DNA of 64,000 nt, from positions 1 through 64,000 of the forward strand of contig JAQBQB010000001.1 of assembly GCA_028287235.1 (NCBI GenBank). The letters run 5' to 3'. Below the pieces are notes generated by a model. That model saw nothing but the letters and a program-made list of their open reading frames with translations, had not been told where the DNA came from and searched no databases. Below are positions 17,369-23,843 of the stretch, one piece after another. Position 1 is the first letter of the stretch; every line of letters starts with the position of its first letter. The DNA comes from Gemmatimonadota bacterium. GTDB lineage: Bacteria; Gemmatimonadota; Gemmatimonadetes; Gemmatimonadales; Gemmatimonadaceae. The position numbers were made by a program, and so were the translations under genes.

Positions 17369-17466
17369 GGCTCGGTGCGGAATGGGCGTGAGGGTGGTTC
17401 GGACTGTGTCCAATCTGTATGTTTGACCGCGAAACCGCTGTCACGCGCCTCTCGTACGGAGCATCT

Positions 17467-18702
17467 GTGAAGCGTGTCGGGTTCCGCGGCCGCCTCTTCC
17501 TCATCCTGCTGGCCTTCGCCCTCATTCCGTCGATCGTCATCTCGCTTGCGTGGAGCGCCACCGGGTCGGTCGTCCTGCCGTTGGCAGCTGAAACTGCCGC
17601 GTGGGACAGCGCGGCGGCCACGGGTGAGCGTGCGGTCGCCGCGGCGCGCGCCGGTACGCTGAGCGGCGCGCAGCGGCACGCGGTCGACGTGCACGAGGCC
17701 ACGCTTCAACAGAGCGTGGTGCAGTCCCGGCGGGCTGGGTTCGTCTTTCGCCGGCTGGCGCAACGACTCGTCGTGGCGACGCTGTTCGTCGTCGTCATCG
17801 TCGGCGTGGTCGCCTCGCGCGTCGCGGGGCATTTGAGCCGGAATCTCAGCCGTCCGTTGCAGGAGCTGGTCGGATGGACGGAACGCATCGGACGCAGCGA
17901 GCCCCTACCCACGACCCCGCCGCGGCGCGGCGCACCGGAGTTCGAAGTGCTGCGGAGGCGCATGCGCGAGATGGCGAGTGAGCTCGAGCTCGGACGCACG
18001 CGGGCATTGGAGGCCGAACGGTCGGCAACGTTGCGTGAGAGCGCGCGCCAGGTGGCGCACGAGCTCAAGAATCCGCTCACGCCCATTCGGTTCGCGGTCG
18101 ACCGGCTGCGACGCGAGGCGCCGCCGGGCTTGGAGGAAACGGTCGAAGTGCTGGCGATCGAGTCGCAACGGCTCGAGGAGATGGCGAAGAGCTTCGCGCA
18201 GTTCGGACGACTGCCCGAAGGGCCTCGCGCCGAGGTGGACCTGAGCGAGCTCGCGCGATATACCGCGCGCGCGACGATTCCGCCGGAAGTCACCGTGCAC
18301 GTCACCGTCGGCGACGACGTGCCGATGATTCACGGCCACCACGACGCGCTGGCGCGCGCGCTCACGAACGTCATGCTCAACGCGGTGGACGCCTGCAAGA
18401 CCGGCGGTAGCGGCCACGTGGCCGTGCGCGTGCAGCGGGTGACCGACGCGGGCCGCGACGCCGTGGAGCTCGCGGTGTCCGACAACGGCTGTGGAATCTC
18501 GCCTGAACGGCTGTCGCGCATCTGGGATCCGTACGTGACGTCGAAGCCCGGCGGGACCGGGCTTGGGCTCGCGATCGCTCGTCAAACGGTGTTGGCGCAC
18601 GACGGCGCCGTCGCGGCGGAGAGCACACTGGGAAGTGGAACGGAGATTCGATTCGTGCTGCCGGTGGACGGCAGCCGCAATGGAGGGGAGAATGCGGGTT
18701 AG
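17467..18702 (+). CDS. Membrane sensor histidine kinase (NtrY-like)
   Basis: A 411-residue two-component kinase. Two transmembrane helices (about residues 10-30 and 100-120) flank a short periplasmic loop of about 70 residues. A HAMP-like linker and coiled coil lead to the phosphoacceptor box RQVAHELKNPLTPI, with the histidine near residue 198. The ATPase domain has NVMLNAVDAC (N box), DNGCGIS (G1) and GGTGLGLAI (G2). The NPLTPI form of the H-box is typical of NtrY/NtrB-type kinases. The GTG at 17467 has a GGAG Shine-Dalgarno five bases upstream; an ATG at 17419 is less likely. The sigma-54 regulator three genes downstream is its probable partner. Confidence 0.9.
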   Translation: MKRVGFRGRLFLILLAFALIPSIVISLAWSATGSVVLPLAAETAAWDSAAATGERAVAAARAGTLSGAQRHAVDVHEATLQQSVVQSRRAGFVFRRLAQRLVVATLFVVVIVGVVASRVAGHLSRNLSRPLQELVGWTERIGRSEPLPTTPPRRGAPEFEVLRRRMREMASELELGRTRALEAERSATLRESARQVAHELKNPLTPIRFAVDRLRREAPPGLEETVEVLAIESQRLEEMAKSFAQFGRLPEGPRAEVDLSELARYTARATIPPEVTVHVTVGDDVPMIHGHHDALARALTNVMLNAVDACKTGGSGHVAVRVQRVTDAGRDAVELAVSDNGCGISPERLSRIWDPYVTSKPGGTGLGLAIARQTVLAHDGAVAAESTLGSGTEIRFVLPVDGSRNGGENAG

Positions 18703-18976
18703 TGGCGAGTTGATTCCGATCGTGATGTTCATGTGTACCGCGGTAACGATCATCGGGTTTCCGGTGGCTCGCGCGTTCGCCAGGCGCATGGAACGCGAAC
18801 CGTCGCAGCCATCGGTTCCACCCGACGTCACGGCACGCCTCGAGCGCATGGAGCAGGCGCTGGACTCGATCGCGATCGAAGTGGAACGGATCTCGGAGGG
18901 ACAGCGCTTCACGACGAAGCTGCTGTCGGAGCGGAGCACCGTGCCGAGCACCGGCGTGTCGAGACCGCAGCAATGA
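18692..18976 (+). CDS. Small membrane protein with coiled coil (paralogue A)
   Basis: A 94-residue protein: an N-terminal transmembrane helix (ELIPIVMFMCTAVTIIGFPVA), a basic juxtamembrane patch (RAFARRMERE), a proline-rich linker, then a coiled coil ending in EVERISEGQRFTTKLLSE. The start is ATG 18692, with a strong GGAGG Shine-Dalgarno inside the end of the kinase gene, which it overlaps by 11 bp. The next gene is a clear paralogue, and the two share about 30 aligned coiled-coil residues (LERMEQALDSIAIEVERI against LERIEQAVEAVAIEVERI). I do not recognise a named family. The location suggests a regulator or scaffold of the kinase. Confidence 0.75.
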   Translation: MRVSGELIPIVMFMCTAVTIIGFPVARAFARRMEREPSQPSVPPDVTARLERMEQALDSIAIEVERISEGQRFTTKLLSERSTVPSTGVSRPQQ

Positions 18977-19293
18977 CTCCGCTGCAGTCCGGCCCCGTGC
19001 AGATCCCGCCCGAAGCGATTCACGCGGCGATCATGCTCGGACGGTATTTTTTCGCCGGGTGCGTGATTCTGGGAATCGTACCTCCGGTCATTCGTCTGTT
19101 CGCGAAACGATTCGAACGTCCCACGACGATCATCTCCGAAATGCCGGCCGAGGCGACGCAGCGTCTCGAGCGCATCGAGCAGGCGGTCGAAGCGGTGGCA
19201 ATCGAAGTCGAACGCATCGCCGAAGCGCAGCGCTTCTCGGCGAAGCTGATGGCCGAACAGGCGCAGCGCGCGCTGCCGCGCTCGGATCAATAA
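18973..19293 (+). CDS. Small membrane protein with coiled coil (paralogue B)
   Basis: A 106-residue protein built like its upstream neighbour: short N-terminus, one transmembrane helix (MLGRYFFAGCVILGIVPPVIR region), a basic patch (RLFAKRFERP), then a coiled coil with QRLERIEQAVEAVAIEVERIAEAQRF split over the linker. Its ATG overlaps the previous stop (ATGA, 18973-18976), and the following regulator begins at the next base after its stop, so all four genes are one translational unit. The protein probably forms homo- or hetero-oligomers with paralogue A. Function unknown. Confidence 0.75.
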   Translation: MTPLQSGPVQIPPEAIHAAIMLGRYFFAGCVILGIVPPVIRLFAKRFERPTTIISEMPAEATQRLERIEQAVEAVAIEVERIAEAQRFSAKLMAEQAQRALPRSDQ

Positions 19294-20673
19294 GTGCCAA
19301 GCGTTCTGATCATCGACGACGAGCCGAACATCCGGCGAATGGTCGGCGCGCTGCTGAGCGCCGAGGGATACGAGGTGCGCGACGCCCAGGATGGCGCAAC
19401 GGGCCTCGCGCGCGCGATCGAAGCCGAGCCCGATGTGTTGCTGCTCGACCTCATGATGCCCGGCGATCTGGACGGCATGGCGACGCTCGGCCGGATGCGC
19501 GAGGCGCTGCCCGACGTACCCGTAGTGATGATGAGCGGACGCGCCGGCCTGAGCGACGCGGTGAAGGCGACGAAGCTCGGCGCATTCAACTTTCTCGAAA
19601 AGCCGCTGAGCCCCGAAGGCGTGTTGCTCGCGCTGTCGTCGGCACTCGAGCTGCGCCAGGCGCGGCGCGAGGCGAAAGCGCTCCGCGCCGATCTCGGGTT
19701 GAGCGGCGAGATGATCGGCGACAGCCCCGCGATGGCGCAGGTGCGCACGATGATCGACCGCGTGGCGCCGACGGATGCGCGCGTGCTGATCACCGGCGAA
19801 TCGGGCACGGGCAAGGAGCTCGTCGCCGCCGCGATCCACGCGGGCAGCGGCCGGCGCGACCGTCCGTTCGTGCGCGTGAACTGTGCGGCAATTCCGCGCG
19901 ATCTGGTCGAAAGCGAGATGTTCGGCCACGAGCGCGGCGCGTTCACCGGTGCGACCGACCGGCGCATCGGGCGATTCGAGCTTGCTCATCGCGGTACGCT
20001 GCTGCTCGACGAAGTAGGCGACCTCGGCGCCGAGGCGCAGGCCAAGCTGCTGCGCGCGATCGAAGCGAAGGAGATCGAGCGCGTGGGCGGCGGCAAGCCG
20101 ATCCGCATCGACGTGCGCATCGTGTCGGCGACGAACAAGGATCTCGCGCGCGGGATCTCCGAGGGGAGCTTTCGCGACGATCTGCTATTTCGTCTCAATG
20201 TGATACCAATTCAGATTCCGCCGCTGCGCGAGCGGCCGGGCGACATTCCGGCGCTCGTGCGCCACTTTTCGACGCTCCATCGCATGCGTACCGGCCAGCC
20301 CGTGCCGGCGTGGAGCGATGACGCGATCTCGGCGTTGACGCGCTACGCGTGGCCGGGGAACGTGCGCGAGCTGGCGAACATCGTCGAGCGGTTGTCGATC
20401 CTGCACGCGGGCCGCACGGTGACCGATACCGACGTCGCGGCGGTGGTGCCGGTGGAGCGCAAATCGCGGCCGAACGCGGCCCCCCTACCGGACCCCGCGT
20501 CCCTCGACCATTCCTTGAGTGACACGCTCGACGAGTACGAGCGCGTTCTGATCGCGCGCGCGCTGTCCATGACCGCCGGAAACGTGGCCGAGGCCGCACG
20601 CCGGTTGAAGACCGACCGGCCGAACTTGTACCGGCGAATGCGAAGGCTTGGCATTCCGGTCGGCAACGAGTGA
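19294..20673 (+). CDS. Sigma-54-dependent response regulator (NtrC/NtrX type)
   Basis: A 459-residue transcription activator with three domains. The receiver has DDE near residues 8-10, the phosphorylated Asp52 (LLLDLMMPG) and Lys103. The AAA+ domain has Walker A GESGTGKE (168-175) and an intact GAFTGA loop at 215-220, the loop that contacts sigma-54, so it should open sigma-54 promoters. A Fis-type helix-turn-helix ends the protein (GNVAEAARRLKTDRPNLYRRM). The start is GTG 19294, directly after the preceding stop. It is almost certainly phosphorylated by the kinase at 17467. Targets are unknown; the outer-membrane gene downstream is a candidate. Confidence 0.93.
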   Translation: MPSVLIIDDEPNIRRMVGALLSAEGYEVRDAQDGATGLARAIEAEPDVLLLDLMMPGDLDGMATLGRMREALPDVPVVMMSGRAGLSDAVKATKLGAFNFLEKPLSPEGVLLALSSALELRQARREAKALRADLGLSGEMIGDSPAMAQVRTMIDRVAPTDARVLITGESGTGKELVAAAIHAGSGRRDRPFVRVNCAAIPRDLVESEMFGHERGAFTGATDRRIGRFELAHRGTLLLDEVGDLGAEAQAKLLRAIEAKEIERVGGGKPIRIDVRIVSATNKDLARGISEGSFRDDLLFRLNVIPIQIPPLRERPGDIPALVRHFSTLHRMRTGQPVPAWSDDAISALTRYAWPGNVRELANIVERLSILHAGRTVTDTDVAAVVPVERKSRPNAAPLPDPASLDHSLSDTLDEYERVLIARALSMTAGNVAEAARRLKTDRPNLYRRMRRLGIPVGNE

Positions 20674-20718: not shown

Positions 20719-22431
20719 ATGCGTAGCACCTTTTTGACGCTGCTTCTGGCGATGCTGCCGGCTGCCGTTGGCGCGCAGCGCGAGCCGGCCGTGGCGCACC
20801 AGACACTTCCGCGCGACGTGCGCCGCGAGGTGGCCGAGCGGTGGAACGGCACGAACGCGCTTCGCGACTCGAGCCGCGTGGAGATCGCCGAAGGTCGCGA
20901 AGTCGCCGGCAACGTTGCCGTGCAGCATGGGCCGTTGATCATCGCCGGCCACGTCACCGGAAGCGTGCTCGCGCTCAACGCCGACGTGCTCCTGCGCCCG
21001 TCGGCGCGCATCGATGGCGAGCTGCTCGTCGTCGGCGGCGACGTCGACGGCCGTACGACAGCCCGCGTGGATGGTGCGATTCGGATCTACCGCGAGGCGA
21101 TGCTCTACCGCGAGGAAAGCGGCCGCATCGTGCCCACCGACGACGAGATATCCCAGGACGAGAACTGGTGGCGCCGCCTCGAGCACCGCCACGAAGGCAA
21201 CTGGAACGAAGCGCTGCGCGTCGTGCAGGCCGGGCCGTACAACCGCGTGGAGGGTCTGCCGATCGAGCTCGGCCCGGCGCTCGCTCGGCGCACGCCATGG
21301 GGAAGTCTGCGGCTCGACGCCGGGGCGATCGTTCGCACCGGAAGCAGCTTCAGCTCCGATCGCGGGGATTTCGGGCACGCCATCCGCGGCGAAGTACGGG
21401 TCGGCCGGAACCGCGGCATCGGCATCGGCGCGCAAGCGCAGAACGTCGTCGATCCGGTCGAGAGTTGGCAGATGTCGGACATCGAAGTGGCGTTGGCGTC
21501 CTTTCTCGCGCGCAGGGATTATCGCGACTACTACCAGCGCCACGGCGGCGGCGGCTTCGTCACGCTGTATGGCGCGCGCGACGTGAGCCTCACCAGCTCG
21601 TTCGGCGAGGAGCGATGGTCGTCACGGGCACGGCGGAATCCATTCACGCTGTTCAACGACAACCGCGAATGGCGGGAGAATCCCGTCGTCGATGAAGGAC
21701 TGTTTCACGTCGCGAGCACGGAGCTCAAGTTCGACACCCGCTCCAACCCCGATGATCCGTTGGCCGGGTGGTATCTGAACGCCAACTTCGAGCACGGCCG
21801 GGGAACGATTCTCTCAGGAGCCCCGACGTCGTCGGACCCGCGAGCGATCGGCCACGCGGGCGTCACGGACTACTCGCGCGGATTCTTCGACTTCCGCCGC
21901 TACAACCGGCTTGGTCCCGACGCGCAGCTCAACATGCGCGTGGTGCTGGGCGGGTGGTTGAATGGTGACCCGCTGCCGCTCGAGCGGCGGTTGTCGGTCG
22001 ACGGGCCGGGCGCGCTGCCGGGATTCGGCTTCCGGAGCGTTCAGCCCGGCGTCGACGTCGGAACGTGCAACGTGGGGATCGGCGCGCCGGGACGGCCGGC
22101 CGAATGCGACCGTATCGCGCTCGCGCAAATCGAGTATCGCGGCGATCTGAGCATCGATTTCACCGGAGACTGGAACGACTGGCCGCGCCACTACCACAGC
22201 GCGCGCGGCGACGTGCAATGGGTGTTCTTCGCCGATGCCGGCCGCGGATGGCTGGTGGGTGCACCCACCGGCACGCTCACCTACGACCGCAGCACGCTGC
22301 CGTCGCTCTCGACGTTTCGGTCGGACATCGGCATCGGCTTGGACTTCGCCGGCATCGGAGTCTACTGCGCCAAGGCGGTATCGACGCCCGAGCCGGTGAA
22401 CTTCTTCGTTCGACTCAAGCATCGTTTCTAG
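20719..22431 (+). CDS. Outer-membrane beta-barrel protein with bactofilin-like N-terminal repeats
   Basis: A 570-residue secreted protein with a Sec signal ending in VGAQ. Residues about 50-125 form short right-handed-helix-like repeats (GREVAGNVAV, GHVTGSVLALNADVLL, ARIDGELLVVGGDVDG), resembling polymer-forming bactofilin repeats. The rest is a barrel of the surface-antigen/BamA type (TELKFDTRSNPDDPLAGWYLNANFEHG), with a typical outer-membrane last strand ending in FVRLKHRF. A cytoplasmic bactofilin-like module on an exported barrel is unusual; here it would be periplasmic. GGAG precedes the ATG. The next gene starts 2 bp after the stop, so the two likely form a unit. Confidence 0.75.
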   Translation: MRSTFLTLLLAMLPAAVGAQREPAVAHQTLPRDVRREVAERWNGTNALRDSSRVEIAEGREVAGNVAVQHGPLIIAGHVTGSVLALNADVLLRPSARIDGELLVVGGDVDGRTTARVDGAIRIYREAMLYREESGRIVPTDDEISQDENWWRRLEHRHEGNWNEALRVVQAGPYNRVEGLPIELGPALARRTPWGSLRLDAGAIVRTGSSFSSDRGDFGHAIRGEVRVGRNRGIGIGAQAQNVVDPVESWQMSDIEVALASFLARRDYRDYYQRHGGGGFVTLYGARDVSLTSSFGEERWSSRARRNPFTLFNDNREWRENPVVDEGLFHVASTELKFDTRSNPDDPLAGWYLNANFEHGRGTILSGAPTSSDPRAIGHAGVTDYSRGFFDFRRYNRLGPDAQLNMRVVLGGWLNGDPLPLERRLSVDGPGALPGFGFRSVQPGVDVGTCNVGIGAPGRPAECDRIALAQIEYRGDLSIDFTGDWNDWPRHYHSARGDVQWVFFADAGRGWLVGAPTGTLTYDRSTLPSLSTFRSDIGIGLDFAGIGVYCAKAVSTPEPVNFFVRLKHRF

Positions 22432-23084: not shown

Positions 23085-23087
23085 TAC

Positions 23088-23262
23088 GTCATCCTGAGGG
23101 AATATGTCATCCTGAGGGAGTGACGCGACCGAAGGATCGCCTTGGTCCGCCGTGGAACGCGATCCTTCGCTTCGCTCAGGATGACAACAGGGACAATGCC
23201 CGCCACAGTCCGCCGTGGAAAGCGATCTTTCGCTTCGCTCAGGATGACAACAGGGTCAGTGC
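23088..23262. repeat. REP-like repeats including a 55-bp tandem pair
   Basis: Two copies of GTCATCCTGAGGG occur at 23088-23117. A 55-nt unit at 23145-23199 is repeated at 23208-23262 with few changes; each unit holds CTTCGCTTCGCTCAGGATGAC or a close variant. Forward and reverse REP motifs can pair. The second unit runs over the stop codon of the minus-strand HNH gene (23256-23258). Confidence 0.85.
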
Positions 23263-23843
23263 GCGGCCACTCTCGGTGCCCGGTGCTCGAGCTGCTCCAA
23301 GTGGTGCAGCACCTCACTCCCATAGAACGTCTTGATGTACCGCGCCTGGGTCGGCGTGAGCCGGCGAACGGCCCAGCTCAGGTGCACGAAGTGCGGCTCG
23401 ACCGGATGCGTGAGCGGGTGCATCCCGATCTCTTCCGGCAGGCGGTTGCCCTTGCGCGTGTTGCACGGGCTGCACGCCGCCACGACGTTCGTCCATTCGT
23501 TCGTGCCGCCGCGCGACAGCGGGATCAGATGGTCGCGCGTCAGCGACTCACGCGGCTTGAGCTCCGTGATGTGCCGGTGGCAGTACTGGCAGCGGTAATG
23601 GTCGCGCGCGAAGAGAAAGGTGTTCGTCACCTGGCGCCGGAAGCGGCGCGGGACGTGGATGAACTTCGTCAGGCGAATGACCGCCGGCCGCGGCATCGTG
23701 AGACGCTCCGAGCGCACGAGACGGTCCTGATCCGCCTCGACGATCTCGGCTTTGCCGTCGATGACCAAGCGCAAGGCCCGCCGCATTGGAACCATCGTCA
23801 ACGGCTCGTAGGACGCGTTCAGTGCCAGACAGCCCAAGACCAC
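23256..23843 (-). CDS. HNH endonuclease
   Basis: A 195-residue nuclease of a widespread bacterial HNH family. The N-terminal part has the family signature CLALNASYEPL and RRALRLVIDGKAEIVE. The nuclease core has CQYCHRH (first CxxC), LTRDHLIPLSRGG with the catalytic Asp-His, and NVVAACSPCNTRKGNRLPEE with the second CxxC and the final Asn/His-like positions. I chose GTG 23843 because GGAGG lies five bases upstream; longer starts lack such a site. The C-terminus lies in a REP repeat. The cellular role of this family is unclear; DNA repair and mobile-element roles have both been proposed. Confidence 0.85.
   Translation of the reverse strand: MVLGCLALNASYEPLTMVPMRRALRLVIDGKAEIVEADQDRLVRSERLTMPRPAVIRLTKFIHVPRRFRRQVTNTFLFARDHYRCQYCHRHITELKPRESLTRDHLIPLSRGGTNEWTNVVAACSPCNTRKGNRLPEEIGMHPLTHPVEPHFVHLSWAVRRLTPTQARYIKTFYGSEVLHHLEQLEHRAPRVAAH

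Follow-up and report, generated by a model that had tools for sequence, protein, structure and literature searches.

Tandem membrane coiled-coil genes with a possible link to PspA in a sigma-54 two-component operon of Gemmatimonadaceae

Introduction

The small membrane protein PspB consists of a single N-terminal transmembrane (TM) anchor and, behind it, a helical part in the cytoplasm; a survey of PSP systems describes it as rare outside proteobacteria and already notes duplicates of it inside a psp operon (PMC11237479). In E. coli, PspA silences the activator PspF, and PspB and PspC relay stress in a way that frees PspF from PspA (PMC9239133). Two-component systems tied to a PspA homologue or a PspC domain are also described, namely LiaFSR-LiaIH in Bacillus and a PspC-domain kinase in Corynebacterium (PMC9239133). 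Like these two systems, the locus considered here combines a two-component system with small membrane proteins, but the membrane proteins are different ones, pspA lies outside the operon, and the regulator is of the sigma-54 type. Gemmatimonadota are absent from the main text of both PSP surveys (PMC11237479, PMC9239133), and a literature search on Gemmatimonas kinases with PSP, tandem PspB and NtrYX accessory proteins yielded nothing relevant besides these surveys.

The stretch of DNA analysed here, referred to as the window, comprises 64,000 nucleotides of a Gemmatimonadaceae genome (contig JAQBQB010000001.1). It includes two neighbouring genes for small membrane coiled-coil proteins, named CC-A and CC-B, between a sensor kinase and its response regulator. 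We propose with moderate confidence that they are PspB-like single-pass inner-membrane stress adaptors, probably partners of PspA, that were recruited into a sigma-54 two-component operon.

Operon structure

All operon genes are on the forward (+) strand. The first encodes a sensor histidine kinase (17467..18702; 411 aa; an in-frame ATG at 17419 is an alternative start) with Pfam HisKA and HATPase_c domains and a sub-threshold HAMP match; its two predicted TM segments enclose a short periplasmic part of about 70 aa. The kinase stop codon is at 18700-18702, and CC-A (18692..18976; 94 aa) starts inside the last kinase codons, giving an 11-nt overlap. CC-A in turn shares the four nucleotides ATGA with CC-B (18973..19293; 106 aa, with an N-terminal extension ahead of the TM segment), whose stop codon (19291-19293) abuts the GTG start of the regulator at 19294 without overlap. 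The initial annotation had described the pair as coupled by overlaps to both neighbours, which holds on the kinase side but not on the regulator side. It was right about a tandem of paralogous membrane coiled-coil genes between a sensor kinase and a sigma-54 regulator, at exactly these coordinates, and understated the paralogy at about 30 alignable residues: CC-A and CC-B align over 73 aa with 47% identity and 70% similarity (E 2e-19). The nearest relative of CC-A is the first array member in another genome (73% identity), and that of CC-B is the second array member in another genome. Neither protein matched a Pfam or NCBIfam family above cut-off, and a PDB sequence search with the family profile gave nothing meaningful, its single match (E 0.046) being attributed to chance. 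Long antisense open reading frames across the region (e.g., 17905-19989, minus strand) were rejected as mirror frames of high-GC coding sequence.

The regulator (19294..20673; 459 aa) combines a receiver domain, an AAA+ domain with GAFTGA and a Fis-type helix-turn-helix, the composition of a sigma-54 two-component regulator, and rpoN was found in the source genome. The system had first been called NtrY/NtrX-type, a loose label. It resembles NtrY/NtrX in joining a membrane kinase to a sigma-54-type regulator; however, NtrY carries a PAS domain, for which the kinase gave no Pfam match, the regulator scored below the cut-offs of both the NtrX equivalog (406.7 against 600 bits) and NtrC (431.3 against 558.6 bits) models, and the downstream genes are of envelope type.

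The first of these, the conserved next gene of the operon, encodes an outer-membrane-type protein (20719..22431; 570 aa) with a weakly bactofilin-like N-terminal part and a weakly Omp85-like C-terminal part, an unusual combination within one protein. It is followed by C1 (22434..23084; about 216 aa), a conserved, probably exported protein without Pfam match, which is single-copy and present in 51 of 59 relatives. After the operon, at about 23085-23320, a short repeated motif (RSFASLRMT in translation) has the appearance of a dispersed intergenic repeat.

A scan for sigma-54 promoters showed no enrichment upstream of the kinase or of the pspA locus. Promoter-like sites were enriched only upstream of the outer-membrane gene in the relatives (13 sites at a score of at least 14, against 0.75 expected), where they often lie 37-60 bases 5' of the start codon (e.g., L067, L084 and L053); the window lacks such a site there, its best one scoring 11 of 16. 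Several of these sites are also inverted repeats and might be promoters or operators/hairpins, and for this reason they were not used as evidence.

Protein architecture

CC-A and CC-B share one layout: a single TM helix, then a basic patch, a linker and a coil. Hydropathy places the TM segment at 18710..18766 (+; residues 7-25) in CC-A and at 19048..19104 (+; residues 26-44) in CC-B, and the coiled-coil helices occupy 18821..18937 (+; residues 44-82, predicted cytoplasmic) and 19144..19263 (+; about residues 58-97), respectively. The coil ends in an E-x-Q-R-F signature, in which E, Q, R and F are invariant among 38 aligned members; it reads E-G-Q-R-F in CC-A (18896..18910, +; residues 69-73) and E-A-Q-R-F within the coiled-coil helix of CC-B (19222-19236, +). 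Of 123 operon members, 122 have more K and R behind the TM segment than ahead of it; the N-terminus is therefore predicted to face outwards and the coil the cytoplasm. A hydrophobic period of 3.5 residues runs through the conserved coil (p 0.005 against position shuffles), and an AlphaFold model of CC-A, with 38 relatives in the alignment, comprises helices at residues 7-35 and 44-82 (mean pLDDT 90). Hydropathy, charge, periodicity and the model of CC-A thus agree on the design of TM helix, basic patch, linker and coiled coil that had been read from the window.

Distribution of the array

C1 served as an independent single-copy marker for finding the operon in other genomes. In 29 of the 32 Gemmatimonadaceae genomes found in this way, array genes lie between kinase and regulator (the exceptions are G012, G018 and G021), with one gene in 8 genomes, two in 12, three in 7 and four in 2. 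The expected conservation beside the kinase, with translational coupling, was thus borne out across related genomes, while the duplicated pair, correct for the window, is one state of an array of one to four genes. In two sister families, array genes were found in none of 17 complete operons (L090-L106), kinase and regulator being directly joined in all 17, usually with overlapping ends. The two genes are likewise adjacent, with no array, in about a dozen Gemmatimonadaceae operons. One further locus showed no array but is partly N-masked (L213) and was excluded from the true absences. In one genome of family f4 (G204), a probable lipoprotein of 236 aa fills the slot between kinase and regulator (L184:3555-4265).

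The orthologous kinase is found in 100 non-redundant operons, 71 of which have an array; carriers are over-represented in this sample, since many of its operons were fetched by their array genes. Reading frames overlap at 49 of 71 kinase-array junctions and 30 of 52 array-array junctions, and at only 2 of 71 array-regulator junctions. The best match of a first member was a first member elsewhere in 54 of 71 cases, and that of a later member was a later one in 36 of 52.

Such overlaps with the kinase and within the array, the positional orthology of the members and the short periplasmic part of the kinase would be consistent with dedicated kinase subunits, as the initial annotation had predicted, that bind the kinase in the membrane through TM helix and coil and set its activity or clustering. 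We nevertheless consider this role unlikely, since the kinase and regulator occur side by side without the array in the sister families and in part of the Gemmatimonadaceae, paralogues with the same invariant coil occur far from any such kinase, and, as described below, the loss of the family follows PspA and not the kinase. The neighbouring sigma-54 AAA+ activator and the predicted cytoplasmic position of the coil raise a second alternative, in which the coil would hold the regulator at the membrane and free it under stress, in the manner of PspA and PspF; the silencing of PspF by PspA with its PspB/PspC relay in E. coli is a precedent (PMC9239133). This tethering appears very improbable to us, given that the regulator comes with a receiver domain and a cognate kinase of its own, that the sequence gives no sign of contact, and that the array rarely overlaps the regulator gene.

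The variable copy number, the operons that do without an array and the many copies per genome in many contexts could also indicate a family that has expanded across genomes and contributes co-expressed membrane stabilizers, passengers or effectors with no part in signalling. We hold this to be decidedly unlikely, since the conserved order of kinase, array and regulator would be unusual for a random passenger, and tight overlaps and positional orthology also speak against it.

Relation to PspA

The source genome has six clear copies of the family, CC-A, CC-B and four elsewhere. Within the Gemmatimonadaceae (our family f1), 95 of 103 genomes carry between 1 and 11 strong copies, and a single-protein search, run at a permissive E of 1, listed as many as 15 matches for a single genome; the remaining families of the class mostly show one weak match apiece. 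Orphan copies occur in varied gene contexts, including those remote from such kinases, and retain the invariant coil. Other Gemmatimonadota families also have single relatives, located between bshC and murJ-uvrC (L123, L128, L130, L132, L133, L137, L138 and L139), where the names bshC and murJ are our own reading of the sequences.

In all 12 sister-family pspA loci examined, a YbjN-like gene and pspA are preceded by TM-coiled-coil genes, of which two to four are usually visible, and in single loci of families f6, f7 and f9 one such gene precedes pspA. None of the 27 Gemmatimonadaceae pspA loci (18 + 9) has such genes, and pspA of this family lies away from the kinase-regulator operon. Profile comparison by hhalign matched the operon set to the pspA-linked set with a probability of 96 and an E of 4.2e-9 over 76 columns, and with an E of 1.5e-10 when more operon members were included, against controls that reached at best 0.017 (kinase TM-HAMP segments) and 1.9e-4 (ten heptad-preserving block shuffles). 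Judged by these profiles, the operon set and the pspA-linked set are homologous. The operon set is matched at least as well by the bshC set (E 7e-15) and the f6/f7/f9 set (E 3e-15), and the match therefore singles out no direct ancestor of the operon arrays.

Presence of the family is associated with that of PspA: among the 103 Gemmatimonadaceae genomes, 92 have both, three have the array family only (G245, G263 and G270, all draft assemblies), three have PspA only (all of one genus, g17), and five have neither (Fisher p 3.3e-5). The five genomes with neither are reduced (1.8-2.4 Mb) and belong to two genera; they keep rpoN as well as an adjacent kinase and regulator. Both PspA and the array family are retained in two further genomes of small size, G206 (2.3 Mb) and G148 (2.0 Mb). 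As the double absences are confined to reduced genomes of two genera, they may represent two or three streamlining events and not independent evidence. The persistence of kinase and regulator where both families are gone, together with the retention of both in G206 and G148, argues for PspA rather than the kinase as the partner.

Comparison with PspB

The array proteins resemble PspB (PF06667 / TIGR02976) in their small size, single N-terminal TM segment and cytoplasmic helical part, which for the window pair are predicted features, as well as in their linkage to pspA in the sister families and their sigma-54 setting. They differ in having their own E-x-Q-R-F signature, in forming arrays of one to four genes, and in that the Gemmatimonadaceae copies reside in the kinase-regulator operon and not with pspA or pspC. 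The window pair gave no match to the PspB models, and 2 of 38 operon members matched a PspB model at an E of 0.058 or worse. Among the pspA-linked members, 7 of 16 touch TIGR02976 (best E 8.7e-7), with a best score of 29.1 bits against a cut-off of 51.7; PF06667 found nothing above cut-off in the genomes of 59 relatives, and a profile comparison with the E. coli PspB sequence was not significant. As the scores stay below the curated cut-off, we do not claim PspB membership. PspC was found in 3 of 40 genomes searched, and in the source genome two adjacent PspC domains were observed in one frame (G000:C11:181500-181874; L294 and L295).

Proposed role

As PspB-like adaptors, CC-A and CC-B would sit in the inner membrane with the N-terminus outside and the coil in the cytoplasm, and would probably bind each other by way of the coil. 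The invariant E-x-Q-R-F end could then form a docking patch for a common partner, most likely PspA, an ESCRT-III-like membrane-repair protein. The placement of the array between kinase and regulator in the Gemmatimonadaceae may allow its output to be coupled to the transcription of envelope genes, possibly by tuning the kinase or the regulator; direct control of the kinase by the array is plausible. Because pspC is mostly missing, and the sigma-54 activator is equipped with a receiver domain and a kinase of its own, the wiring must differ from that of E. coli.

Divergent PspB-like genes, often arrayed and in many copies per genome, appear to be present throughout the phylum and are missed by current models. 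Their placement in the pspA operon or in a sigma-54 kinase operon in neighbouring families would offer a natural experiment on how adaptors are wired to signalling, and what PspB-type proteins sense and bind becomes testable in cultivable Gemmatimonas.

The members of an array are not uniform: in arrays of at least two genes, the last member has the longer N-terminal part in 26 of 35 cases (p 0.006), which indicates that the array copies are differentiated. A more speculative scenario, which we advance tentatively, is that the arrays first lay at the pspA locus, were transferred to the kinase locus when the Gemmatimonadaceae arose, and diversified thereafter, the first members being short and the later ones bearing long N-terminal arms that are predicted to be periplasmic. 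Such hetero-oligomeric PspB-like arrays would set the kinase by reporting the engagement of PspA at a damaged membrane, thereby connecting an ESCRT-III-like repair protein to a phosphorelay.

At the other end of the protein, a C-terminal -TPH was observed in 8 of 95 other members of the family, compared with none of the 123 operon members and none of 1896 other proteins. Its bearers occur in two families (L042-L044, L056, L070, L076, L079 and L126) and are non-operon or last copies; the tail is possibly a C-terminal recognition tail.
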